DNA of 64,000 nucleotides from Streptomyces sp. NBC_01571 (GTDB taxonomy: Bacteria > Actinomycetota > Actinomycetes > Streptomycetales > Streptomycetaceae): positions 8,742,001-8,806,000 of the forward strand of contig NZ_JAPEPZ010000001.1 of assembly GCF_026339875.1 (NCBI RefSeq), in the 5' to 3' direction. Below the pieces are notes generated by a model. It was not told where the DNA came from. It did no database searches and saw nothing but the letters and a program-made list of their open reading frames with translations. This document shows positions 4,917-25,157 of the stretch, piece after piece. Position numbers and translations under genes: made by a program. How positions within the stretch are numbered: position 1 is the stretch's first letter; every line of letters begins with the position of its first letter.

Positions 4917-6316
4917 CGTCGCTCCAGAGCACGGTCGGTGAGGGCTCCGGCGGAGCCCGTGTAGCGGGTCGGGTCGGTGAGTTCCACCACGTCGACGTCC
5001 TTCAGCCGCGGTTCCTCGCCCAGGACGTCCGCGAGGGGACGGCCCTCGGCGACGGCCCGTTCGGCGGTTCGGGTCAGCAGTTCCCTGGCGTGGTGCCGTC
5101 CCAGCACGGGGGCGAGTTCGACGGCCAGCCGCTCCGAGACGATCAACCCGTGGGTGAGACCGAGGTGTTCACGCATGGCGTCCGTGTTCACCCGCAGCCC
5201 TTCGGTCAGTTCTGCGGCGCCACGGGCGGCGCCGCCGACCAGCCGCAGCAGCTCGCGCAACGGCTCCCACTCGGCGTGCCAGGCACCGGCCGGCCGCTCG
5301 TCCTCGGCGGCCATCGACGCGTACAGCGTGGCGGCGAGCCCCGGTGCGCGCCGGGCGGCGGCCGCGATCAGCGTGGCCGCCACCGGGTTGGCCTTGTGCG
5401 GCATCGCGGACGAACCGCCGCCGCTCCCCTCGGCGACCTCGGCGATCTCGGTACGGGAGAGGGTGAGCACGTCGGCCGCCGTCTTGCCGAGGGCGCCGGC
5501 CGTCAGGGCCAGTGCCCCGGCGAGATCACCGACCGGGGTACGAAGGGTGTGCCACGGCAACGCCGGTTCCACGAGCCCGAGTTCCCGGGCGTACGAGGCC
5601 ACGAGGAGCTGCGGGTCGTCGGCGCCGAACGCGCTGAACGCGGCCAAGGTCCCTGCCGCTCCGCCCAGTTGGGCGGGTAGGCGCAGACCCGCCAGCCGGT
5701 CCCGCGCGTCCAGGACCAACGCGCGCCACCCCGCCGCCTTCAGCCCGAAGGTCGTCGGCACCGCGTGCTGCGTGAGCGTCCGTCCCGGCAGCACCGAATC
5801 CCGGTGGGTGGCGGCGAGTTCCCGCAGCGCCCGCGCTGTGCGCTCGAGGTCTTCCAGGATCGGCCGCAGCGTGCGCCGGGCCACCAGCATCATCGCGGTG
5901 TCCATGATGTCCTGGCTGGTCGCGCCCCGGTGGACGTACGGTCCGTACTCGCCGCCCACGGCCGCTGTCAGATCCGCGACCAGCGGGATCACCGGGTTGC
6001 CGCCCTCCCGGGCGCGCAGCGCGATCGACCGCGTGTCGAGGTCCGTGGCGGTGACGGCGGACAGGGCCGACGCGGCGGGGGCCGGGGCCAGCCCGAGTCC
6101 GGCCCAGGCCCGCGTCAGCGCCGCCTCCGCGTCGATCAGCGCTTGCAGGAACGCCCGGTCCGAGGTCGAGGACGACGCGGGGGAGCCGGCCCATCCGGGG
6201 GCGAGCAGACCGACGTCGGGATCGCCGGAGTCGCCACGGTGGTTCCGGCCGGCAGGATCGGGGGGATCGGTGGAATCGGCGGGGCCCGCGGGACCGGCCG
6301 GGTCGGCAGCTGTCAC
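4913..6316 (-). CDS. pcaB: 3-carboxy-cis,cis-muconate cycloisomerase
   Basis: 467 residues of the fumarase/aspartase superfamily. It cyclises 3-carboxymuconate to gamma-carboxymuconolactone, the step after ring cleavage. The family signature GSSAMPHKANP lies at about 301-311 and the TSQD motif at about 133-136. The GTG start at 6316 overlaps the pcaG stop (GTGA). It is followed by about 40 Pro/Asp/Gly-rich residues before the conserved domain, so the N-terminus is longer than the enzyme core needs; there is no better start inside. The order G-B-L is typical of actinomycete pca operons. Confidence 0.95.
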   Translation of the reverse strand: MTAADPAGPAGPADSTDPPDPAGRNHRGDSGDPDVGLLAPGWAGSPASSSTSDRAFLQALIDAEAALTRAWAGLGLAPAPAASALSAVTATDLDTRSIALRAREGGNPVIPLVADLTAAVGGEYGPYVHRGATSQDIMDTAMMLVARRTLRPILEDLERTARALRELAATHRDSVLPGRTLTQHAVPTTFGLKAAGWRALVLDARDRLAGLRLPAQLGGAAGTLAAFSAFGADDPQLLVASYARELGLVEPALPWHTLRTPVGDLAGALALTAGALGKTAADVLTLSRTEIAEVAEGSGGGSSAMPHKANPVAATLIAAAARRAPGLAATLYASMAAEDERPAGAWHAEWEPLRELLRLVGGAARGAAELTEGLRVNTDAMREHLGLTHGLIVSERLAVELAPVLGRHHARELLTRTAERAVAEGRPLADVLGEEPRLKDVDVVELTDPTRYTGSAGALTDRALERR

Positions 6317-6876
6317 TGGAACTCCAGGAAGACCGTTTCGCCTTCGCCCTGAAGACGGATGTCGAAACGGTACGTGCGGTCCGGCCCGCCGGCCGCGATC
6401 AGCGTGGCGCGCCGGTCGGCCGGGAGCGAGTCGAGCAGCGGGTCCGGGCCGTCGGCGAGGTACGCGCGGGTGAAGAGGTGGTGCGTCAGACCGCGGGCGA
6501 ACACGCACACACCGAGGTAAGGCAGGCCGGCGTTGCCCGGCGGCAGCGTACGCAGGGCCCAGTGCCCGTCGGCGTCCGTACCGACCCGGCCGAAGCCCGT
6601 GAAGTCGACGCCGTTGCGGCCGAGGAAGCCTCCCGTCGAGGGGTCGCGGCGCATCGAGCCGGGGGCGCCGGTCAGCGAGCCGTCGGGTGCCGCCTGCCAG
6701 AAATCCAGGAGGGCGTCGGGCACCGGGCTGCCCGCGCCGTCGGACACGTACCCGTGGACGGTGATCGTGTCGGGGTGCCCCGGGGGCGCCACCTGCTCGC
6801 CGCCCGGGAAGGGCAGCGCGTGGCCGTAGAAGGGGCCGATGGTGTGGGACGGGGTGGGGAGCAACCGCTCGGTCAT
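6313..6876 (-). CDS. pcaG: protocatechuate 3,4-dioxygenase alpha subunit
   Basis: 187 residues. Shows the alpha-subunit pattern: PTPSHTIGPFYGHALPFP at the N-terminus, then an intradiol dioxygenase beta-sandwich (GSPVPDALLDFWQAAPDG; GRNGVDFTGFGRVGTD) and the closing DIRLQGEGETVFLEF. Alpha subunits lack the iron ligands, which sit in PcaH; the two form the ring-cleaving enzyme converting protocatechuate to 3-carboxy-cis,cis-muconate. Only two bases separate its ATG from the pcaH stop, so the two subunits are made in step. Confidence 0.95.
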   Translation of the reverse strand: MTERLLPTPSHTIGPFYGHALPFPGGEQVAPPGHPDTITVHGYVSDGAGSPVPDALLDFWQAAPDGSLTGAPGSMRRDPSTGGFLGRNGVDFTGFGRVGTDADGHWALRTLPPGNAGLPYLGVCVFARGLTHHLFTRAYLADGPDPLLDSLPADRRATLIAAGGPDRTYRFDIRLQGEGETVFLEFQ

Positions 6877-6878
6877 GC

Positions 6879-7649
6879 TCAACGGCCTTCCTCGATCCAG
6901 GTGGCGGAGGGACCGTCGAGGACGATGTCCCACGCGTAGCCGAGCGAGAACCCGGGCTCGGAGAGAGCGTGGTCGTAGGCGGCGATCAGCCGGTTGCGGG
7001 CCGCTTCGTCCGTCACGGACCGAAGGATCGGGTCGTACGGGAAGAGCGGGTCGCCGGGGAAGTACATCTGCGTCACCAGGCGCTGGGTGAACGCGGAGCC
7101 GAAGACGGAGAAGTGGATGTGCGCGGGCCGCCACGCGTTGGTGTGGTTCCCCCACGGGTACGGGCCCGGTTTGATCGTCGTGAACCGGTACCGCCCCTGA
7201 TCGTCCGTCAGAGTCCTTCCCACGCCGGTGAAGTGGGGGTCGAGCGGCGCCGGGTGCTGTTCGCGCAGGTGCGCGTAGCGGCCGGCCGCGTTGGCCTGCC
7301 AGATCTCGACGAGCTGGCCGCGAACCGGCCGCCCGTCGCGGTCCAGCAGCCGGCCGGAGACGGTCATGCGCTCGCCGGCCGGCTCGCCCCGGTGCTGCCG
7401 GGTCAGGTCGTTGTCGATCTCGGTGATGTCGGTGACGCCGAAGACCGGACCCGACAGCTCGACCGTCTCCGGGTCGCCGCCGGCGACCGCGACGAGCGGT
7501 TGTCGGGGGTGGCGGAGCAGGGAGCTGCGGTACGGGGGGTAGTCGCGCGCCGGATGATGCATGACCGGAGCGCCGCCGGCGACCGCCTTGTCGTAGGCGT
7601 CCTGGCGGTCCTTGATCTCGGCGTCGATCTCCGACTGGGTGGGGGCCAT
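6879..7649 (-). CDS. pcaH: protocatechuate 3,4-dioxygenase beta subunit
   Basis: 256 residues. The non-haem Fe(III) ligands are all present: Tyr125 (GRYAH), Tyr164 (GPYPWG), His177 and His179 (WRPAHIHF). Their spacing (39, 13, 2) equals that of the Pseudomonas PcaH ligands. With PcaG it opens the protocatechuate ring between the hydroxyls. ATG start at 7649; the stop of the truncated pcaF lies 11 bases upstream. Intact, unlike its upstream neighbour. Confidence 0.95.
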   Translation of the reverse strand: MAPTQSEIDAEIKDRQDAYDKAVAGGAPVMHHPARDYPPYRSSLLRHPRQPLVAVAGGDPETVELSGPVFGVTDITEIDNDLTRQHRGEPAGERMTVSGRLLDRDGRPVRGQLVEIWQANAAGRYAHLREQHPAPLDPHFTGVGRTLTDDQGRYRFTTIKPGPYPWGNHTNAWRPAHIHFSVFGSAFTQRLVTQMYFPGDPLFPYDPILRSVTDEAARNRLIAAYDHALSEPGFSLGYAWDIVLDGPSATWIEEGR

Positions 7650-16541: not shown

Positions 16542-16547
16542 TAGGAT
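16542..16547 (+). promoter_or_regulatory. -10 box ahead of the tRNA-like pair
   Basis: TAGGAT, 12 bases before the first base of the tRNA-like gene at 16560. The third tRNA-like gene has the same layout. Confidence 0.5.
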
Positions 16548-16559
16548 CCGCTGGCGCAC

Positions 16560-16631
16560 CCGGGCGTCGAGCAGAGGCAGACTCGCCGTCTTGGCAAGAC
16601 GGATACGCCGGTTCGAATCCGGTCGCCCGGG
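16560..16631 (+). tRNA. tRNA-like gene 1, anticodon GGC (reads Ala GCC)
   Basis: Folds as a cloverleaf: acceptor CCGGGCG/CGCCCGG (7 pairs), U8, D arm with only three pairs (GAG/CTC) and loop CAGAGGCAGA, anticodon stem CCGTC/GACGG, loop TTGGCAA (U33, anticodon GGC), four-base variable loop, T arm GCCGG-TTCGAAT-CCGGT, discriminator G, no encoded CCA. The G3-U70 pair that normally marks tRNA-Ala is absent (G3-C70). The body is nearly identical to the next gene, which has a Gly anticodon. A normal elongator role is doubtful. Confidence 0.7.
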
Positions 16632-16662
16632 CTGCGTCCGGTCCGCCGGGCCGGGGGAGCGG

Positions 16663-16734
16663 GGCCCTGTAGAGCAGAGGCAGACTCGCCGCCTTGCCAA
16701 GGCGGATACGCCGGTTCGAATCCGGCCGGGGCCA
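16663..16734 (+). tRNA. tRNA-like gene 2, anticodon GCC (reads Gly GGC)
   Basis: Acceptor GGCCCTG/CGGGGCC (one G-U), D arm identical to gene 1 with three pairs, anticodon stem CCGCC/GGCGG, loop TTGCCAA (anticodon GCC), T arm GCCGG-TTCGAAT-CCGGC, discriminator A. The D and T arms are copies of those in gene 1, only 31 bases upstream. The anticodon arms differ by paired, compensating changes plus the middle anticodon base. It ends 28 bases before the SDR start codon, so the RNA is probably processed from the same transcript. Confidence 0.72.
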
Positions 16735-16762
16735 CGGCGACGTACACGCGGGGCGGGGACAC

Positions 16763-18109
16763 ATGGGCGAGGGCGGCGGGATCCCACAGGACGAGCTGGC
16801 GGCATTCCACCGTACGGTCGGCAGGCTGCGGGAACTGCCCGTCGACGACCCGGTACGGCTGCGGGCGGAACAGGTCGCCGCGTCCTTCGCGCGCGACGGG
16901 CGACTGCGCAGACGCAAGGCGCGCGGCGCCGAGGTGTCCGCCGCCGACGCGGCGGTGATGGCCGCGACCGCGACGGGCGCGCTCGACCGGCGGGAGGACG
17001 CGCCGCTCACGCACGCCGGGGACGGCGCCACCGCGGGGGGCGTCTTCAACAAGTCCCGCACCTGCTACGTCTGCAAGACGCCGTACCGGCAGGTCGACGC
17101 CTTCTACCACCGGCTGTGTCCGGACTGCGCGGCCGACAACACCGCCCGGCGCGCGCTCACCACCGACCTCAGCGGGCGGCGCGCGCTGCTCACCGGAGGC
17201 CGGGTCAAGATCGGTTTCCAGCTGGCCCTGATGATGCTGCGCGACGGCGCCGAACTCCTCGTCACCAGCCGCTTCCCGCACGACACCGTGCGCCGCTTCC
17301 GCGCCGAACCGGGCAGCGGGAAATGGCTGGACCGGCTGACGGTGCTGGCGGTGGACCTGCGTGATCCGCGCCAAGTGCTCGGGTTGTGCGAGCAGTTGCG
17401 GCAGGAGGGCGAGCCGCTCGACATCCTGGTGAACAACGCCGCGCAGACGGTGCGGAGGCCCGTCGAGTCGTACGCCCTGCTGGCCGCCGGGGAGCGCGCC
17501 GGACTGCCCGAAGGCGCCCGGCAGGCACCGGGGTTCACGCCGTTGCGGGCGCTGGGCGGCGGCCGTGCGGCGCTGCCCGCGGCCCTGCGGGAGGCCGACG
17601 AGGCCGGTCTGCTGCCCGACCCGTCTCCGGAGAACTCATGGTCTGCGCGGCTGGGCGACCTCGACCCGGCCGAGGTCCTGGAGACCCAGTTGGTCAACGC
17701 GCTCGCCCCGGCGCTGCTCTGCGACCGCCTGCTGCCTCTGCTGCTCGCCTCGCCCCGTCCGCGTCGTTACGTCGTCAACGTGACGGCCGTGGAGGGCCGG
17801 TTCGCCGTGCGCAACAAGATGGCGGGCCACCCGCACACCAACATGGCCAAGGCCGCGCTGAACATGCTCACCCGGACCAGCGCGGCCGAACTGGCCGACA
17901 AGGGTGTGCACATGTGCGCTGTCGACACCGGCTGGATCACCGACGAGAACCCCGCTCCGAAGAAGGAACGGATGGCGGGCGCGGGGTTCCGCACCCCGCT
18001 GGACGTGGTGGACGGGGCGGCCCGGGTGTACGACCCCATCGTGCGGGGCGAGGCGGGCGCGCCGATGTCCGGGGTGTTCCTCAAGGACTACCGGGAGGCG
18101 GAGTGGTGA
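16763..18109 (+). CDS. zinc-ribbon plus SDR-fold protein with altered active site
   Basis: 448 residues. Residues 1-95 are helical and unrecognised; Cys101, 104, 119 and 122 (CYVC...CPDC) form a zinc ribbon; 135-448 is a short-chain dehydrogenase fold with nucleotide motif TGGRVKIG (144-151) and ILVNNAAQ (221-228). The catalytic YxxxK is HTNMAK: Lys363 remains, but Thr359 replaces Tyr, so normal SDR chemistry is doubtful. An insertion of about 75 residues follows the NNA motif. The GTG of the next gene overlaps its stop. Directly downstream of two tRNA-like genes, so a role in binding or modifying RNA is possible but only inferred. Confidence 0.8.
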   Translation: MGEGGGIPQDELAAFHRTVGRLRELPVDDPVRLRAEQVAASFARDGRLRRRKARGAEVSAADAAVMAATATGALDRREDAPLTHAGDGATAGGVFNKSRTCYVCKTPYRQVDAFYHRLCPDCAADNTARRALTTDLSGRRALLTGGRVKIGFQLALMMLRDGAELLVTSRFPHDTVRRFRAEPGSGKWLDRLTVLAVDLRDPRQVLGLCEQLRQEGEPLDILVNNAAQTVRRPVESYALLAAGERAGLPEGARQAPGFTPLRALGGGRAALPAALREADEAGLLPDPSPENSWSARLGDLDPAEVLETQLVNALAPALLCDRLLPLLLASPRPRRYVVNVTAVEGRFAVRNKMAGHPHTNMAKAALNMLTRTSAAELADKGVHMCAVDTGWITDENPAPKKERMAGAGFRTPLDVVDGAARVYDPIVRGEAGAPMSGVFLKDYREAEW

Positions 18110-19395
18110 GCGGGGCCGGTGCGGAGGAGGCGGAACGGGGGCCGCTCCCGGGACCGTACGCGGGACCGCTCCTGGGACCGTACGCGGAGCCGCTCCCGGG
18201 ACCGAAACAGGAGCCGGAGTCTGCGCCGGAGTTCGCGGGCGTGCCGTCCGTCGTCCCGCGTCCCGCGGCCGAACTGGAGCCGCTGCTCGACTGGTTGCGC
18301 GGTGGCCGTCCGGCGGGGGAGCGGCTGGACTTCACGGCGGGTACGGCGCTGCCCGACGGGCGCCTCGACCTGTGCAAGCAGGGGATCGGCGCGCGAGGCG
18401 CGGCACTGATCGCCGACGCCCTCTCCGAGGGCGCCTCCCCCGTACGGCACCTGCTGCTCGGTACCGACGGGCTCGGCGACGAGGGTGCCGCCGCGGTGGC
18501 GGGCGGCGCGGACGTCGAGACGCTGTATCTCGGCTGCAACGGGATCACCGCCGGCGGGGCCTGCCGGATCGCCGACAACCTGCGCGCCTCGCCGCGGGTC
18601 GTCACCGGCCTGTGGCTCAAGCGCAATCCGCTCGGCAGCGGGGGAGGGCGGGCGGCCGCCGAACTCGTCGACGTCGCACGGTCGCTGCGCACGCTGGACC
18701 TCGTGCAGACCGGGCTCGACGCGGCGGGCGCGGTCGTCCTCGCCGACGCCCTGCTCGCCGCGGCGGAGAACGGCCGCCGTATCGAGCGGCTGTTCGTCGG
18801 CGGCAATCCGCTCGGTGCGGCGGGTGCCGTACCGCTGGCCGAACTGATCGACGGCGGCGCGGTCGACGAACTCTACGTGTCGGCGGCGCGGTTGGGCGAT
18901 GCGGGTGCGCTGCGGCTGGCCGGTGCGCTGGAGCGGGCGCCGTACGGACGACTCACCCGACTTTCCGTCGCCAGCAACGGCATCGGGGCCGGGGCCGCCG
19001 CCCGGCTGGTGGCGGCGGCGACCGCGGCGGGCGTGACCCTGCTCGACCTCGGCCGGGTGCGCGCGGCCGCGGTGCTCGGCGCGGCCGACAACCACGTCGA
19101 CCTCGCGGCGGCCACCACCGTCGCGGACGTGCTGGCGGGCGCCGAACACCGCCTCACCCACCTCGTCCTCACCCACACCGGCATGCGCAGCCGTGAGGCT
19201 CACCGCCTCCTCGACACGGCGCCGCGTGCCGTCACCGCGACCCGCTTCGTACTGGGCAGCGGTATCGCCACCAGCGTGAAGCGGCGGCTGGCGGCGCTGA
19301 GCGCGCACGTCCCCGCCCCGGCCGTCCCGGCGGACGTCGCCGCCGTACGCAGTGTCCACCGCACGGCGCCTGCCGGGATCGAGGAGCACGGCTAG
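18106..19395 (+). CDS. leucine-rich-repeat (ribonuclease-inhibitor type) protein
   Basis: 429 residues. After a Pro/Gly-rich N-terminal tail of about 60 residues (three LPGPYA-like repeats) come at least seven leucine-rich units of the ribonuclease-inhibitor type: VETLYLGCNGITAGGACRIA, VTGLWLKRNPLGSGGG, LRTLDLVQTGLDAAGAVVLA, IERLFVGGNPLGAAGA and so on. Such horseshoe folds bind proteins. Translation is coupled to the SDR gene by a GTGA overlap. No signal peptide. It converges with the ATPase gene. Confidence 0.88.
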   Translation: MSGAGAEEAERGPLPGPYAGPLLGPYAEPLPGPKQEPESAPEFAGVPSVVPRPAAELEPLLDWLRGGRPAGERLDFTAGTALPDGRLDLCKQGIGARGAALIADALSEGASPVRHLLLGTDGLGDEGAAAVAGGADVETLYLGCNGITAGGACRIADNLRASPRVVTGLWLKRNPLGSGGGRAAAELVDVARSLRTLDLVQTGLDAAGAVVLADALLAAAENGRRIERLFVGGNPLGAAGAVPLAELIDGGAVDELYVSAARLGDAGALRLAGALERAPYGRLTRLSVASNGIGAGAAARLVAAATAAGVTLLDLGRVRAAAVLGAADNHVDLAAATTVADVLAGAEHRLTHLVLTHTGMRSREAHRLLDTAPRAVTATRFVLGSGIATSVKRRLAALSAHVPAPAVPADVAAVRSVHRTAPAGIEEHG

Positions 19396-19455
19396 GGCGT
19401 GTTGCGGGTCGGGGGCCTGCGGCTTGGAGCCCGGGGCGAGCGAGGAGCACCGCTG

Positions 19456-19490
19456 CCGTCAGCCGTCAGGCGTCAGGCGTCAGGCGTGCG
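19456..19490. repeat. short GTCAGGC tandem repeat
   Basis: Four successive copies of GTCAGGC-like heptamers in the convergent gap between the LRR and ATPase genes. Similar GTC-rich units occur in the gap before pcaL (about 3610-3680). Confidence 0.5.
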
Positions 19491-19560
19491 GCGGGGCGGG
19501 ACGGCGTCAGGTGTGCGGGGTGCGGTGGACACGGGGCGACGCGGCCGGGACGGCCGGGTG

Positions 19561-21375
19561 TCAGCGCCGCATGGCCGTGAATATCTCGGTCCAGAAACGC
19601 TGTTGCTGCGCCGACGCACCCACCAGATACGTCGCCCGCAGCTTCGGCGGCAGCAGGGGGACCAGCCGCCCCACCAGCGCCCGGTGCTTCTTCAGCTGGG
19701 ACAGCTCCGCGTTGGCGAGGATCTGGTGGACGACGTCGCTGTCGTCGGTGCCCTCGTCGGAGTGTCGGGCCGCGCGCCGCAGCCGGGCCTCCCAGGCGTC
19801 CGCCTCGCGGGCGAGCTCGCGCAGACCCGTCACCGGGCGTCCGCGCAACCGGTCGACGAGTGCCGTCAGGGACACGGGGGCGTACTCGCCGTCGCCGAGG
19901 TAGACCGTCGCCATCTCCAGCTCGAGCCCGTGCCGGTGCAGCTTGATGAGCCGCTCCAGGGTGCGCTTGGTGATCCAGGCACGGCCCTCGTCGTCGATGT
20001 CGTTCTTCCACCACTCCAGGACGGTCTCGGCGTCCGAGCCGTACCGCGCGAGCAGCCACTCGTTGGCCGGGATGTCCTCCGGCTCGACCGTCAGGGAGGC
20101 CGTGAACCGGCTGGCCTGCGCGATGTTGTTCCGCGCGACCAGGAGCTTGCGGCCCAGGTGGTACGGAGGATTCTGGACGGCGATCTGCGCGCGCAGGTTC
20201 TCGATCCGGCGCCCGGCCAGCGACCACTCCTGGGTGATCTCCATCAGCTTGGCGAACGCGGCCTTGTCCTTGGGCCGGTTGTACTCGTCCCAGACGATCG
20301 CCTTCGGCTCGGGACCCGTGAAGTTCGCCGCGAGCAGGTTGTCCAGTGTGCCGTCCGCCGACGGGATCGGGGCGCACAGGTCCTCGACGTTGGTCACCGG
20401 CAGCGAGAAGTACAGCGGCTCCCGGCCGAGCCCCTCGCGCACCGTCTCCCGTACGAGCTCCGTCTTTCCGCAGCCGGGGGGTCCCTGGAGCAGCACGGTC
20501 CAGCGATTGCGCAGCGCCGCCCTGACGACCTGGCGGACCGGGTCCGGGATCGTCGACGGATTGGGCACACCGAGCTCCTCGGCGATCCGGTTCAGGATCT
20601 CCGCGGTGCGGTTTCGCCCGGGTCCGCCGTCGGGACGGGGCTCGACGAGGCGCAGCCGCTCTCCGCCCACCAGGGGCAGGGCCCAGCGCAGCGGGAATCC
20701 CTCCCGGGCGTTGGCCAGGATGTGGTCGAGGGTGCGCGGTGAGAGCAGCTCGCGCAGCGCGGGGGAGAGGGAGGCCCACAGTGAGAAGACCGGTGTCAGA
20801 TCCCATTCCCGGTACGCGGCGGACAGCTGGCGGCGCCACGAGGTGTCGTTGGCCGTGACGCGCAGGGTGACCATGCGGTCGAGGAGCGCGAGGTCGCCGC
20901 GCCGCGCCGAGGTCTCGGCCAGCGACTCGTTGTCGGTGAGGAAGACGCCGATGCAGCCCAGGGCGCGCAGGTCGTGCTCGCCGAGCGTCCAGTCGCAGGC
21001 GATCTGCATCAACTGGGACTGGACCGTGTCGCCGGCCTGCAGCGAGTCGTCGATGAGCAGGACGAAGGGTGTGCCCGGCTTGAGCTGACTCATCACGAGC
21101 TGGCGCAGCACGAGTTCACCGCTGTCGGCGTCCCGTACCGGCGCGTTGACCAGCAGGTCGTCCGGGGTGAGGTTGGCCGCGGGCACGTACACCAGCGTGG
21201 CGTCGGGGTGGGCGCGCGCCACGTGCGAGAAGAACGTGGCCGTCTTGCCGATACCGTGCTCGCCGAAGATCTGGCCCGTCTGCCCCATGGCGATCAGGGC
21301 GTCGATGAACGCCTCCAGACGCGAGGGCACGGGTGCGCCGCGGTCGGTGCGGCCGGGGTCGGTTGCGGTGGTCAT
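19561..21375 (-). CDS. double AAA+ ATPase (MoxR-like)
   Basis: 604 residues with two AAA+ modules. The first has Walker A GEHGIGKT (38-45) and Walker B VLLIDD (105-110); the second has GPPGCGKT (298-305) and AIVWDEYN (359-366). About 150 C-terminal residues follow. MoxR-type ATPases act as chaperones that load or remodel partner proteins, often with a VWA-domain partner, which is what precedes it: the ATG overlaps the VWA stop (ATGA). Most MoxR proteins have one AAA module, so the tandem form is notable. A basic patch near the C-terminus could bind nucleic acid. Confidence 0.85.
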   Translation of the reverse strand: MTTATDPGRTDRGAPVPSRLEAFIDALIAMGQTGQIFGEHGIGKTATFFSHVARAHPDATLVYVPAANLTPDDLLVNAPVRDADSGELVLRQLVMSQLKPGTPFVLLIDDSLQAGDTVQSQLMQIACDWTLGEHDLRALGCIGVFLTDNESLAETSARRGDLALLDRMVTLRVTANDTSWRRQLSAAYREWDLTPVFSLWASLSPALRELLSPRTLDHILANAREGFPLRWALPLVGGERLRLVEPRPDGGPGRNRTAEILNRIAEELGVPNPSTIPDPVRQVVRAALRNRWTVLLQGPPGCGKTELVRETVREGLGREPLYFSLPVTNVEDLCAPIPSADGTLDNLLAANFTGPEPKAIVWDEYNRPKDKAAFAKLMEITQEWSLAGRRIENLRAQIAVQNPPYHLGRKLLVARNNIAQASRFTASLTVEPEDIPANEWLLARYGSDAETVLEWWKNDIDDEGRAWITKRTLERLIKLHRHGLELEMATVYLGDGEYAPVSLTALVDRLRGRPVTGLRELAREADAWEARLRRAARHSDEGTDDSDVVHQILANAELSQLKKHRALVGRLVPLLPPKLRATYLVGASAQQQRFWTEIFTAMRR

Positions 21376-22799
21376 CGGTCCTGGTCCTGTGCTGAGGGGA
21401 GTCGGCGCGACCCGGTGGTCACTCGGTGGCAGTCCATGGGCGGGCTGTGGGTCTCGGGCCAGTCGCTGCCGCCCTCGGTGATCAGCCAGATCCACTTGTC
21501 GGGCTCGGCGGGGGTGATCGGCGGGGCACAGCCGTCGGTGAGCACCACCACGGCGTCCGGACTCACCTCGCAGCGGCGGCCGTTCACCTCCGTGCGCCCC
21601 TCGACGTAGTCGGCGACGGCCCCGAAGTCCGTGCCGCCTCCGCCGAGGACGCGGCCGCCCGGCTCGAAGGGCATCACCTCGGCGTCGAAGGACAGCCAGT
21701 GCGCCTCGACCCCGTCGATCCGCCCGACGAGGCCGGTGAGCCAGTCGATCACCCGGTTCGGCATGGAGCCCGAGGTGTCGTACGCGATGACGAGCACCTT
21801 GTCCCGTACCGGGCCGCGCCGCGAGAGCATCGGCTCCTGGCCGAGCGCCGCGAGCAGCGCGCCCCGCTTCTTGGGGTACACGAGCCGCTCGCCGTCACGG
21901 AGTCGCGAACCGAGCACGTCGACCAGCCAGCGCTGCCACCAGTCGACCGTCCGTGTCCGGACGGTCTCGCCGCGCAGGGCTCCGGCGCCGAGCCGTCCCC
22001 AGATCCTCGCCGCCCGTGCCGAGGCGTCCTCCGTGCGTCCCATCAGGTCGAGCAGCTCCCGCTCGGCGCCGGTGTGCCCACGGCGGGCCGCGAGCAGGGC
22101 GTTGAGCAGCGCGGAGGAGGAGACCTCGTCGACGGTGTCCTGGTCGGCGGGCACCGCGGTCGTCAGATGGACGCACACCCGTCGGGCGGCCACCGGGGGG
22201 TGGCGCATCCGCTTCAGCTCGCCGTACACCGTCATGTCCGTCTCGGTGAACTCGTCGTAGCCGACCGGTTCCAGTCCCTGGGCGAGCAGGTCCTGCCGGT
22301 ACGCCGCGTGGATCAGGCGCGGATCGACGCCCGTGGGGTCGCCGTCGAGCAGGGGCAGGGATTCCCGGCGCAGCCGCACCAGTGCCACGTGGTTGATCGA
22401 CACTTCGGTGGCCGTCTCGAAGACGGGGTCCGCGCGCAGCTCCGGGTCGGCGAACAGGTGCCGCTGCAACAGATGCCGCGCCTCGTGGAACAGCACGAAC
22501 TTCACGCCGTCCAGGCCGAGTCGTACGAAGAAGTCCGGGTTGTAGAGCAGCAGGCAGGTGCCGTCGCCCGAGGCCACCACGGCTGCCGTGTCCACCGCGG
22601 TTGTGGCCAGTTGGTGGTGGCACTTCGCGTACAGCCAGGAAGCCACCGCCGACTCGGTCAGGCCGAAGTCCAGCAGCGCGGCCTCCTTGAGAAGCCGCGC
22701 CTGCTCGACCACTTCCGGGCCGGCCGGTCGGTAGCGCCCGAGCGCCCTGTGGTCCGCCAGATCGACGACGGGCCGCCGCCCCCGCTCCCCGTACGCCAT
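21372..22799 (-). CDS. VWA protein with HEXXH metallopeptidase-like domain
   Basis: 475 residues. The N-terminal half matches the putative metallopeptidase domain of the DUF2201 type, with HEARH at 105-109 (a HEXXH zinc motif) in FVLFHEARHLLQRH. The C-terminal half is a von Willebrand A domain with MIDAS motif DTSGS at 341-345 and a second Asp in VVVLTDG. In VWA/MoxR pairs the VWA protein captures the target and the ATPase remodels it. First gene of a two-gene operon with the ATPase. Confidence 0.87.
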   Translation of the reverse strand: MAYGERGRRPVVDLADHRALGRYRPAGPEVVEQARLLKEAALLDFGLTESAVASWLYAKCHHQLATTAVDTAAVVASGDGTCLLLYNPDFFVRLGLDGVKFVLFHEARHLLQRHLFADPELRADPVFETATEVSINHVALVRLRRESLPLLDGDPTGVDPRLIHAAYRQDLLAQGLEPVGYDEFTETDMTVYGELKRMRHPPVAARRVCVHLTTAVPADQDTVDEVSSSALLNALLAARRGHTGAERELLDLMGRTEDASARAARIWGRLGAGALRGETVRTRTVDWWQRWLVDVLGSRLRDGERLVYPKKRGALLAALGQEPMLSRRGPVRDKVLVIAYDTSGSMPNRVIDWLTGLVGRIDGVEAHWLSFDAEVMPFEPGGRVLGGGGTDFGAVADYVEGRTEVNGRRCEVSPDAVVVLTDGCAPPITPAEPDKWIWLITEGGSDWPETHSPPMDCHRVTTGSRRLPSAQDQDR

Positions 22800-22883
22800 G
22801 TCCCGCCCCCGTGTCCGACACCGTGCCCGGTCTCCCCCGTCACCTCCTTGGTATCAGGCCCCACCGACATCGGGCCAAGGCAT

Positions 22884-22889
22884 TACGCT
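22884..22889 (+). promoter_or_regulatory. -10 box ahead of tRNA-like gene 3
   Basis: TACGCT, 11 bases before the tRNA-like sequence, the same layout as at 16542. Confidence 0.45.
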
Positions 22890-22900
22890 CGACGCCAAGG

Positions 22901-22976
22901 GCGGGGCCGTAGCGCAGAGGCAGGCGCGGCCGGTCTCCCAAACCAGAGCACGCTGGTTCGAATCCAGCCGCCCCGC
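22901..22976 (+). tRNA. degenerate tRNA-like gene 3, anticodon CCC (reads Gly GGG)
   Basis: Keeps a perfect T arm (GCTGG-TTCGAAT-CCAGC), a four-pair D stem GCGC/GCGC with the same AGAGGCAG loop as genes 1 and 2, U8 and U33. The acceptor helix needs a bulged C at 22908 to pair. The anticodon stem has a C-A mismatch, and one extra base sits before it. Loop CTCCCAA gives anticodon CCC. These defects argue against use in translation. It lies between the VWA operon and the 288-residue gene, reading toward the 3' end of the latter. Confidence 0.6.
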
Positions 22977-23011
22977 CCCCCTCATGCCGCCCCCTCGCCC
23001 CGCCGCGCGGG

Positions 23012-23878
23012 TCAGGCGACGGCCCCGGCGGTCGCGAGCAGCTCGGGGACCGTGCCGTAGTACGTACCGACCAGCTGGGCGAGTACGGCCCAGGCGTCCT
23101 CGCGGTCGCCCAGGTGGTCCCGTACCAGCGGCCGCAGTACGTCCTCGGCCTCCCGGACGCGGGCCGGGAACATCGTCCGGCCCATCGACAGCACCCGCAG
23201 CACCCGGTCCGCGGGGCTCCACGCCGTCGCGTAGCGCGCGGGACCGTCGAGGACACCCGACTGCCGGACCCGGTGGGTGAACTTCGCGTGCGAGCCGAAC
23301 CGTTCGCGCAGCGCGGGCGGACAGTCGGGGCGCACGGCCAGCGCCCAGCGCGCGTAACCGGGCAGTGCCCGCTCCGTATCGGCCGCCGCGACCGCCTCCC
23401 AGCCGGGGCGTCCCACCACCATGGAGGCGGCCTTCCGCGCCGGGCCCATGGACCGGGAGGCCCGCAGCGCGCCGACGAGTCCGAACCGGCTGAAGTGCTC
23501 GGGCACCGGCGGTTCCGGCTCTCGGAGCAGTGACTTGGCGACCGGTACGGCGTGTCTGCGGCCGGGGCCGTGCGGAATTCCGCGCATGATCGCGCGGCGC
23601 ATCGCGTCGTCCGCCGAGAGATGCCGCCACACCAGGGCGTTGAGTTCCGGATCGTCCTCCTCCAGAACCCACAGCAGTACGGAGGACGGCACGGACGTGC
23701 GGGTCCACCAGGAGTACACCGAGCGCCGGGCGTCCAAGGCCTCCTCGGACTCTCCCGACTCGCCGTCGGGCAGGGGCGGCCGCAGGCCGATCCGCCGCCG
23801 CACCCGCTCGGCCTGCCCGGCATCGAGCAGACCCAGCAGGAACCCGGCCGCCCGTTCCGACGTGGTGTTGTCATGCAT
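23012..23878 (-). CDS. protein of unknown function (288 residues)
   Basis: I do not recognise this gene. The product has 288 residues, is soluble, and is mostly helical with a repetitive feel (LLGLLDAGQAERVRRRI; VLLWVLEEDDPELNALVWRHL; VGALRASRSMGPARKAASMVVG), which would suit an alpha-solenoid such as HEAT repeats. No catalytic motif is evident. ATG at 23878. A long perfect palindrome sits about 45 bases upstream, so the gene is probably under a dedicated regulator. Its 3' end is 35 bases from tRNA-like gene 3. Confidence 0.75.
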   Translation of the reverse strand: MHDNTTSERAAGFLLGLLDAGQAERVRRRIGLRPPLPDGESGESEEALDARRSVYSWWTRTSVPSSVLLWVLEEDDPELNALVWRHLSADDAMRRAIMRGIPHGPGRRHAVPVAKSLLREPEPPVPEHFSRFGLVGALRASRSMGPARKAASMVVGRPGWEAVAAADTERALPGYARWALAVRPDCPPALRERFGSHAKFTHRVRQSGVLDGPARYATAWSPADRVLRVLSMGRTMFPARVREAEDVLRPLVRDHLGDREDAWAVLAQLVGTYYGTVPELLATAGAVA

Positions 23879-24179: not shown

Positions 24180-25157
24180 TCAGCCGGCGGCGCGCGCGGC
24201 CATCCGCGCCTTGCGAGCCGCGAGCTTCTCGTCGAACTTCGAGGCCTCCGCGTCCAGGCCGCGCATGAAGAGGCCGAGCTCCTCCTGGGCCTGCAGGCCT
24301 TCGGGGCCGAAGCCGTCCATCTCCAGGACCTTGAGGTGGCGCAGCACCGGCTGCATCACGTCGTCGTGGTGGATGCGCATGTTGTAGACCTCGCCGATGG
24401 CCATCTGGGCGGCGGCGCGCTCGAAGCCGGGCATGCCGTGTCCGGGCATCCGGAAGTTGACGACGACGTCGCGCACGGACTGCATGGTCAGGTCGGGGGC
24501 CAGCTCGAACGCGGCCTTGAGCAGGTTCCGGTAGAAGACCATGTGGAGGTTCTCGTCGGTCGCGATGCGCGCCAGCATCCGGTCGCAGACCGGGTCGCCC
24601 GACTGGTGACCGGTGTTGCGGTGCGAGACGCGGGTCGCGAGCTCCTGGAAGGCGACGTACGCGACCGTGTGCAGCATCGAGTGGCGGTTGTCCGACTCGA
24701 AGCCCTCGTTCATGTGCGCCATACGGAACGCCTCGAGCTTGTCGGGGTCGACGGCGCGCGAGGCGAGCAGGTAGTCGCGCATCACGATGCCGTGCCGGCC
24801 CTCCTCGGCGGTCCAGCGGTGCACCCAGGTGCCCCAGGCGCCGTCACGGCCGAAGAGCGCGGCGATCTCGTGGTGGTAGCTCGGCAGGTTGTCCTCGGTG
24901 AGGAGGTTGACGACCAGCGCGATCCGGCCGATCTCCGTGACCTTCGACTGCTCCTTGCCCCAGGCCTCGCCGTCCTCGAACAGGCCGGGGAAGTTGCGCG
25001 CGTCGCTCCACGGGACGTACTCGTGCGGCATCCAGTCCTTGGCCACCTTGAGGTGGCGGTTGAGCTCGGTTTCGACCACTTCCTCCAGCGCGTACAGCAG
25101 CCGAGCGTCGGTCCAGGCGGCGGACGGGCTGCCGAGGTGGGGAGAAGTGATCGTCAC
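24180..25157 (-). CDS. acyl-ACP desaturase (soluble, di-iron)
   Basis: 325 residues of the soluble stearoyl-ACP desaturase family. Di-iron ligands are visible: TEDNLPSYHH (from Glu88), EEGRH at 118-122, the Glu/His pair of FQELATRVSH (172-179) and DENLH at 201-205. It introduces a double bond into acyl-ACP, using O2 and reductant. GTG start at 25157 with a GGAG site. A dense set of repeated operator-like boxes lies 100-160 bases upstream, indicating tight control, plausibly by a lipid-responsive TetR-type repressor; no such regulator gene is adjacent. Confidence 0.92.
   Translation of the reverse strand: MTITSPHLGSPSAAWTDARLLYALEEVVETELNRHLKVAKDWMPHEYVPWSDARNFPGLFEDGEAWGKEQSKVTEIGRIALVVNLLTEDNLPSYHHEIAALFGRDGAWGTWVHRWTAEEGRHGIVMRDYLLASRAVDPDKLEAFRMAHMNEGFESDNRHSMLHTVAYVAFQELATRVSHRNTGHQSGDPVCDRMLARIATDENLHMVFYRNLLKAAFELAPDLTMQSVRDVVVNFRMPGHGMPGFERAAAQMAIGEVYNMRIHHDDVMQPVLRHLKVLEMDGFGPEGLQAQEELGLFMRGLDAEASKFDEKLAARKARMAARAAG

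Follow-up and report, generated by a model that had tools for sequence, protein, structure and literature searches.

A tRNA-like RNA family linked to zinc-ribbon SDR and leucine-rich repeat genes in actinobacteria, a candidate RNA-protein machine

Introduction

Why should a compact block of five protein genes in Streptomyces sp. NBC_01571 be bracketed by tRNA-like genes? The block occupies positions 16542 to 23878 of a 64,000-nucleotide stretch (here, the window), which corresponds to C1:8742001-8806000 of an 11.5-Mb genome (contig NZ_JAPEPZ010000001.1). It encodes a zinc-ribbon protein of the short-chain dehydrogenase/reductase (SDR) fold, a leucine-rich repeat (LRR) protein, a double-AAA ATPase, a metallopeptidase-like protein with a von Willebrand factor A (VWA) domain, and a solenoid-like protein. 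A first-pass annotation proposed that these genes and the tRNA-like genes constitute a single module. Comparative sequence analysis now demonstrates a structured RNA family, termed T RNA, with fixed protein partners, anticodon diversity within loci, and a constrained C in the anticodon loop. The whole looks like an undescribed RNA-protein machine of soil actinobacteria.

Results and Discussion

A predicted family of tRNA-like RNAs

The tRNA-like genes annotated earlier, two at the left and one at the right of the block, were confirmed with Rfam and with ARAGORN, which reads T RNA genes as ordinary tRNAs. T RNA 1 (16560..16631, plus strand; ARAGORN 16560-16632; anticodon GGC) scored 47.5 bits with the Rfam tRNA model. 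T RNA 2 (16663..16734, plus strand; ARAGORN 16663-16735; anticodon GCC), which immediately precedes the SDR gene, scored 58 bits, and T RNA 3 (22903..22976, plus strand; ARAGORN 22901-22979; anticodon CCC), which is divergent from the VWA gene, scored 36.7 bits. The CCC anticodon of T RNA 3 is replaced by CCA in many relatives. All three RNAs have the D arm (GCAGAGGCAG) and the T arm in common with elements that lie close to the SDR gene of relatives and differ in their anticodon arms, and we assign them to one predicted RNA family. A covariance model of this family gave 76.9, 77.7, and 73.7 bits for T RNAs 1, 2, and 3, respectively. The best ordinary tRNA of the same genome in the comparison, which covered most of the tRNA genes found in it, reached 62.2 bits, below all three. 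The right-hand element had been called degenerate; at 73.7 bits, compared with 76.9 and 77.7 for T RNAs 1 and 2, it is not degenerate as a member of the family. It has two mismatches in its 7-bp acceptor stem, and its sequence would allow an outward extension of the stem; the acceptor stem of T RNA 1 is also extendable beyond 7 bp. The genome contains exactly three matches to the T RNA search pattern, every one inside the block.

Base pairing was assessed in two ungapped alignments of 50 sequences each, picked for diversity from 95 and from 94 sequences. Standard pairs fill 94.0% and 92.7% of the base-pair cells (shuffled means, 76.1 and 77.4), and both sides have changed in 13 of the 20 pairs of each alignment, mainly in the acceptor and anticodon stems. 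None of 500 shuffles reached the observed pairing and covariation values, and sliding the partner by one base lowered the pairing to approximately 52% or less. Related sequences are not mutually independent in the T RNA tests, only identical arms, loops, or loci being merged. Since stretches of the D and T arms, the T loop, and G18G19 are set in the search pattern, their invariance is to some extent a product of the search. The covariance model, which derives from pattern-found sequences, recovered further copies that the pattern had missed, such as one at locus L298 with a compensated (changed) T stem. A match at locus L308 is weak by score (53.3 bits, below the 62.2 bits of the ordinary tRNA) and rests on its site, 23 bases before an SDR gene. 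The T RNAs thus possess a tRNA secondary structure according to ARAGORN, Rfam, and covariation, and the covariation, together with the absence of further pattern matches in the same genome, rules out chance tRNA-like sequences.

Do these RNAs decode? T RNAs might be extra working tRNAs, that is, special isoacceptors charged for translation or for tRNA-dependent modification. They share the cloverleaf, G18G19, the T loop, and the 7-bp acceptor core with canonical tRNAs (Rfam RF00005); U8 is present in 239 of 243 T RNAs, and among 132 well-paired anticodon arms, 103 have U33 and 106 have a purine at position 37. Each window RNA also keeps one minor acceptor identity pair. The available excerpts of PMC9976931 give A73, G2-C71, G3.U70, and G4-C69 as bacterial alanine identity elements and U73, G1-C72, C2-G71, and G3-C70 as those of glycine. 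Measured against these excerpts, the window T RNAs, which carry Ala or Gly anticodons, lack the main acceptor identity elements: T RNA 1 keeps only G4-C69, T RNA 2 only G1-C72, and T RNA 3 only G3-C70, and none has G3.U70 or the expected discriminator base. Of the 243 T RNAs in the family, 4 have U73, 9 have G3:U70, and 7 have an encoded CCA. Unlike canonical tRNAs, the family joins one body to many anticodon arms and has no single isotype, and the tRNAs of the Streptomyces genome that were compared already cover all 20 amino acids. In nine Catenulispora-type T RNAs (L050 and L053-L058), a conserved 31-nucleotide anticodon region replaces the stem-loop, the tRNA body being otherwise intact. 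The missing Ala and Gly acceptor elements and these expanded regions count against plain decoding, and we regard a role as working tRNAs as improbable. T RNAs resemble allo-tRNAs and other noncanonical tRNAs as unusual tRNAs with an extended acceptor stem and differ in their short variable region, the lack of a serine-type long arm, and their fixed protein neighborhood.

Diversity and constraint of the anticodon arms

The arm statistics cover 232 of the 243 T RNAs, 11 with longer regions being excluded, and the loop statistics are limited to arms with at least 4 of the 5 stem pairs. There are 144 distinct anticodon arms, over which stem pairing amounts to 92%, compared with 61% (maximum, 65%) when the 3' halves are swapped. 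Within loci, the anticodons tend to differ: across 43 loci that hold at least two T RNAs (99 RNAs, after exclusion of loci with a shared RNA), only 1 of 71 within-locus pairs shares an anticodon. Permutation gave a mean of 6.8 such pairs, and 0.48% of 5000 permutations were as low as 1.

The loops are constrained at the same time. C35 or C36 is present in all 71 distinct 7-nucleotide loops (column shuffle mean, 58.3; maximum, 65), compared with 22 of 48 tRNA loops of the Streptomyces genome. A C-purine step is found in 69 of the 71 loops (shuffle mean, 60.0; maximum, 67; genomic tRNAs, 25/48), and CA is found in 61 (shuffle mean, 46.0; maximum, 55; genomic tRNAs, 19/48). A constraint of this kind is what a cut site or a recognition site would need.

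Some arms also resemble those of the Streptomyces tRNAs. Three of the 144 are identical to genomic tRNA arms (Asp, Glu, and Ala) and five more are one base off, three of these from Trp, which brings the total within one change to 8 (control means, 0.58 exact and 2.87 within one change; maxima, 4 and 8). Arms whose loop is identical to that of a host tRNA have stems nearer to that tRNA than shuffled stems are (2.86 versus 4.92 differences; 0 of 2000 shuffles as near), a result for 29 arms from which kinship was not removed.

Linkage of T RNAs to module genes

Public bacterial genomes were scanned with the RNA pattern alone, blind to the proteins, which yielded at least 118 stretches. Among the matches listed, all 80 named stretches derive from actinobacteria, namely, Streptomyces, Kitasatospora, Streptacidiphilus, Actinacidiphila, Amycolatopsis, Lentzea, Kutzneria, Kibdelosporangium, Saccharothrix, Murinocardiopsis, Streptosporangium, Actinospica, Catenulispora, and a few unclassified members, and 114 of the 118 stretches carry one or more of the five module genes (tblastn). 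The exceptions are L167, which is cut off by the end of the stretch and contains only two genes that flank the window locus, and L112, L139, and L154, which have none; a relative carrying the same RNA as L139 has SDR-LRR-AAA-VWA genes approximately 9 kb further along. The association recurs in several families, which removes the worry that it is merely local.

The genes occur in three layouts. In type I, found in the window, Streptomyces and related genera, Amycolatopsis, Kutzneria and others, Catenulispora, and Actinospica, the SDR-LRR and AAA-VWA pairs are converging or codirectional and are often accompanied by the solenoid protein. Type II is the layout of the family that includes Murinocardiopsis (f19), where a T RNA and genes for the SDR, the LRR protein, an ankyrin protein, MoxR, and a DUF2201/VWA protein follow one another in one direction; all five type II genes are present in 15 of the 20 f19 loci examined. 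In the third layout, the SDR-LRR pair stands alone with one to three T RNAs. The two gene pairs remain linked well beyond close relatives, a lack of such linkage being what the first-pass annotation had named as refuting its proposal, and they form a single operon in some genera. One such operon, L256:5874-10627, has T RNAs with four different anticodons: one before the SDR gene, two between the LRR and ankyrin genes, and one between the ankyrin and MoxR genes.

Where the T RNAs stand bears on whether they act in cis. Among the matches listed, 130 of 186 T RNAs precede the SDR gene on its own strand, 124 of them within 400 bp (median, 113 bp). This placement, like the copies between the operon genes of L256, would suit cis-acting RNase P/Z processing signals or leaders that separate and tune operon messages. 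Such a role is nonetheless unlikely, since a further 35 of the 186 sit between VWA and solenoid genes, the former divergent and the latter convergent, on the strand opposite both neighbors, and a signal would need neither different anticodons within a locus nor a C at position 35 or 36. Orphan T RNAs apart from module genes (L197, L200, L202, L203, and L248) also speak against a cis element and may act in trans; those of L200, L202, and L203 have a Trp-like CTCCAAA/CTCCAGA loop. The remaining T RNAs of the 186 comprise 3 beside a VWA or solenoid gene and 18 elsewhere, several of which adjoin an LRR gene in 8-kb stretches without an AAA, VWA, or solenoid match.

Starting from the proteins gave a similar picture. 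In a sample of 250 f19 genomes, the pattern detected a T RNA in 28, the LRR gene was found in 46, and both were found in 27. The pattern missed 19 of the LRR genomes, and in 17 of these the covariance model places a T RNA within 0.7 kb of the SDR or LRR gene (16 at 70 bits or more and one, L308, at 53.3). This brings the LRR genomes with a T RNA to 44 of 46, one of them by a weaker match; the exceptions are L318, whose contig starts inside the LRR gene, and L316, with approximately 0.7 kb of upstream sequence. VWA-gene genomes numbered 10 of 61 and 5 of 296 in two samples that both included the Streptomyces genome, and all 14 have a T RNA, 13 directly and the 14th (G048) through the public record L107. 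Conversely, the T RNA pattern was found in 11 genomes of the 296-genome sample. Six of these have no VWA match: G311 has SDR-LRR, G319 has an SDR, G201, G247, and G325 have type II or SDR-LRR sets, and G343 has an LRR-ankyrin-MoxR-VWA operon with its own T RNA. In the genomes sampled, the protein genes were not found to be widespread without tRNA-like neighbors, and the presence of a T RNA in 14 of 14 VWA genomes and 44 of 46 f19 LRR genomes bears out the earlier view that RNAs and proteins belong together.

SDR loci outside the module provide a contrast. No T RNA accompanies the SDR gene in three Streptomyces-genus genomes (G006, G030, and G034) that have an SDR orthologue and no LRR match, nor is there one at five loci with more distant SDR homologues (L061 scored only 16.4 bits). 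In G013, an SDR gene without an LRR gene is accompanied by two decayed T RNA copies of 32.6 and 29.4 bits. Judged by gene neighborhood, the T RNA family is genetically tied to the zinc-ribbon SDR and the LRR protein and commonly also to AAA/MoxR and HExxH-VWA proteins. The five-protein module of the earlier proposal stands in part: T RNA, the zinc-ribbon SDR, and the LRR protein form a predicted tight core, whereas the AAA, VWA, and solenoid genes are absent from several loci.

tRNA genes often flank islands, and the patchy distribution of the module and the decayed copies beside the lone SDR gene of G013 would agree with T RNAs being attachment sites or decayed tRNA remnants of a mobile island. 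This explanation is highly improbable and is largely refuted by the covariation; the constrained diversity of the arms also speaks against it. Attachment sites were rejected on the grounds of the fixed places of T RNAs relative to genes across families, the lack of any VWA match among 72,556 plasmid records (cut-off, E <= 1e-20), and the lack of module genes on the one viral contig with the pattern.

Proteins of the module

The SDR-fold protein (16763..18109, plus strand; 448 amino acids; adh_short, E=1.9e-16) has an N-terminal four-Cys zinc ribbon and a Thr in place of the Tyr of the YxxxK motif, in agreement with the earlier description of a zinc-ribbon SDR that has lost its catalytic Tyr. 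The zinc-ribbon Cys residues, Lys363, Thr359, and Ala342 are invariant in all 30 sequences aligned, which include four from T-free loci of the more distant homologue; Thr359 and Ala342 occupy what we take, from the spacing of the Ser-Tyr-Lys motif, to be the Tyr and Ser positions. The module SDR thus lacks an active Ser-Tyr-Lys triad, and the invariant replacement of both residues makes the family unlikely to be a standard reductase. Loss of the Tyr as a trait specific to the module was considered and rejected, as the change is old and is also found in homologues from T-free loci. The Streptomyces genome has a second, more distant zinc-ribbon SDR (G000:C1:8935960-8937384; hits of 46-54% identity), with counterparts in most Streptomyces-genus genomes sampled; the loci examined have no T RNA and show the Tyr-to-Thr change.

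The coupling of the LRR gene (18106..19395, plus strand; 429 amino acids) to the SDR gene was likewise recovered, its start overlapping the SDR stop codon. The best PDB sequence match of the LRR protein is ribonuclease inhibitor (E=1.7e-13), a match that is only suggestive, such LRRs being generic. On the minus strand, the genes for the double-AAA ATPase (19561..21375; 604 amino acids) and the DUF2201 metallopeptidase-like VWA protein (21372..22799; 475 amino acids; DUF2201_N, E=6.7e-06) form the pair announced in the annotation, a MoxR/AAA_5-type ATPase gene adjacent to a VWA gene. The two P-loops of the ATPase are invariant in 19 of 19 AAA proteins aligned. The HExxH motif and the metal ion-dependent adhesion site (MIDAS; DTSGSM in the window, DxSGSM in general) are invariant in 23 of 23 VWA proteins, type II included. 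The protein encoded after T RNA 3 (23012..23878, minus strand; longest frame from 23914) was rightly described as solenoid-like: its AlphaFold model is all-helical (mean pLDDT, 92.2). It has no Pfam match, and no clear relative emerged from fold searches. Where close relatives of the window VWA and solenoid proteins are named, they are from Streptomyces.

Proposed function

The annotation suggested that the module recognizes, modifies, or guards against a tRNA-shaped RNA, which we can still only infer; the T RNA is encoded by the locus itself and would accordingly be a component rather than a foreign target. A constant body with a variable yet constrained loop, binding-type proteins (zinc ribbon, LRR, and ankyrin), and an ATPase-peptidase pair are best explained if the T RNAs serve as anticodon-arm bait or sensors for tRNA-cleaving attack in an RNA-protein surveillance machine with AAA-VWA as its output, a possibility that we put forward tentatively. 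In this scheme, T RNAs would be excised, at the size of a tRNA, from transcripts made at the locus. The SDR, with its zinc ribbon and NAD-binding fold, and the LRR protein would grip them by the constant elbow, leaving a panel of anticodon loops on display. A tRNA-attacking ribonuclease, perhaps the ribotoxin of a rival or an anticodon nuclease of phage or host origin, would cut a displayed loop; the SDR-LRR complex would read the cut and relay a signal to the AAA-VWA pair where present, and that pair would remodel or cleave a target, leading to shutdown or repair. The tRNA look-alikes would be both bait and alarm of the cell. It is more doubtful that the module is specifically a bacterial immune or stress ribonucleoprotein, in which a T RNA bait panel, each loop with C35 or C36, would sense or absorb tRNA-cleaving weapons, the LRR protein of ribonuclease-inhibitor type and the noncanonical zinc-ribbon SDR would be the reader, and the AAA-metallopeptidase would be the effector.

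A hint of repair comes from KptA/Tpt1, an RNA 2'-phosphate-removing enzyme, whose gene immediately adjoins the module in two loci that differ in subtype (L196:16226-16768, plus strand, and L302:2101-2643, minus strand). KptA is present in 135 of the 250 f19 genomes and is commoner in those with the LRR gene (34/46 versus 101/204 others; Fisher p=0.003, uncorrected for kinship). As a regular member of the module it was rejected: in the 34 f19 genomes with both genes, they stand side by side only in G201 and G366. The Streptomyces genome has one KptA gene, 3.5 Mb away.

Several observations weigh against the bait or sensor reading. Three exact host-arm matches against a control mean of 0.58 and a maximum of 4 are weak evidence of mimicry, and 96 of the 144 arms differ from every tRNA arm of the Streptomyces genome at 4 or more of 17 positions, so that mimicry would be only partial. 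An LRR match is missing both from G319, which retains good T RNAs with SDR and solenoid genes, and from G549, which has a T RNA. G019 and G311 have T RNA, SDR, and LRR genes, with no VWA gene in the genome and no AAA gene in the loci examined, indicating that AAA-VWA is not an obligatory output. Scans of the module proteins revealed no nuclease, ligase, or known toxin; PADLOC gave only P-loop-level matches, for the AAA protein; and KptA is adjacent in only two loci, its co-occurrence being confounded by kinship.

Nearly as good an account, and in itself also rather doubtful, is that T RNA serves a maturation or remodeling machine as its structural or adaptor RNA, scaffolding SDR-LRR and bringing substrates to AAA-VWA, with the anticodon arm as a variable substrate- or partner-binding arm. 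The constant body with one variable arm would fit this role, and the orphan T RNAs suggest action in trans. A precedent would be Ro60 with bacterial Y RNA (YrlA), a noncoding RNA that has a tRNA-like module. The likeness lies in a VWA protein together with a tRNA-like RNA; T RNA differs as a single tRNA-sized fold with SDR and LRR partners. Against a scaffold stand the lack of a TROVE match among the 5 window proteins and 10 type II or neighbor proteins scanned, and the retention of RNA, SDR, and LRR in G019 and G311, from which the VWA gene is missing. The cis-signal and translation readings fit less well than either the bait or the scaffold reading.

Relation to known systems

The individual parts, namely, the tRNA fold, SDR, LRR, MoxR, and DUF2201-VWA, are known. 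The MoxR-VWA ternary conflict systems of PMC7159879, as far as its available text goes, share a MoxR-type AAA and VWA pair and an actinobacterial occurrence with the module, which differs in its SDR, LRR, ankyrin, and RNA components. A term search of that text gave no DUF2201 and a single mention of LRR, in the reference list. The bpMoxR profile scored 19.8 to 20.8 bits for type II proteins, below the cut-off of 27, and was not listed for the window AAA protein; with this score and with SDR, LRR, and ankyrin proteins as companions, the module does not classify as a ternary system. A link to tRNA-shaped RNA, and KptA beside the module in two loci, are the points in common with the RtcB/tRNA repair operons and KptA/Tpt1. 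For Tpt1, passages of PMC6333775 regard it as unclear whether a substrate exists in E. coli. Pfam scans of the module proteins gave no RtcB, ligase, or kinase, and KptA is not a constant part.

No description of the combination of a tRNA-like RNA with the module proteins was found within the literature searched, some of which was available as excerpts. If correct, the analysis would add a noncoding RNA family with fixed protein partners across several actinobacterial families and perhaps a new way of guarding translation through encoded anticodon-arm decoys. Orphan parts would become testable, such as the role of altered zinc-ribbon SDRs, the cleavage target of DUF2201 VWA proteins, and possibly the substrate of bacterial KptA.

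Further observations concern neighboring and unlinked features. In L307, a NUDIX protein gene (6201-7013) follows the LRR gene. On the second contig of the Streptomyces genome, two tRNA-Gly(TCC)-like genes of low score (G000:C2:233453-233522 and 385176-385245) have an unusual D arm and an encoded CCA and are unlike the normal tRNA-Gly(TCC) of the genome. In the window, the Rfam model ASdes, a mycobacterial antisense RNA, matches with 71.5 bits at 24736-24803 (plus strand), inside an acyl-ACP desaturase gene, and this match probably reflects coding-strand conservation.

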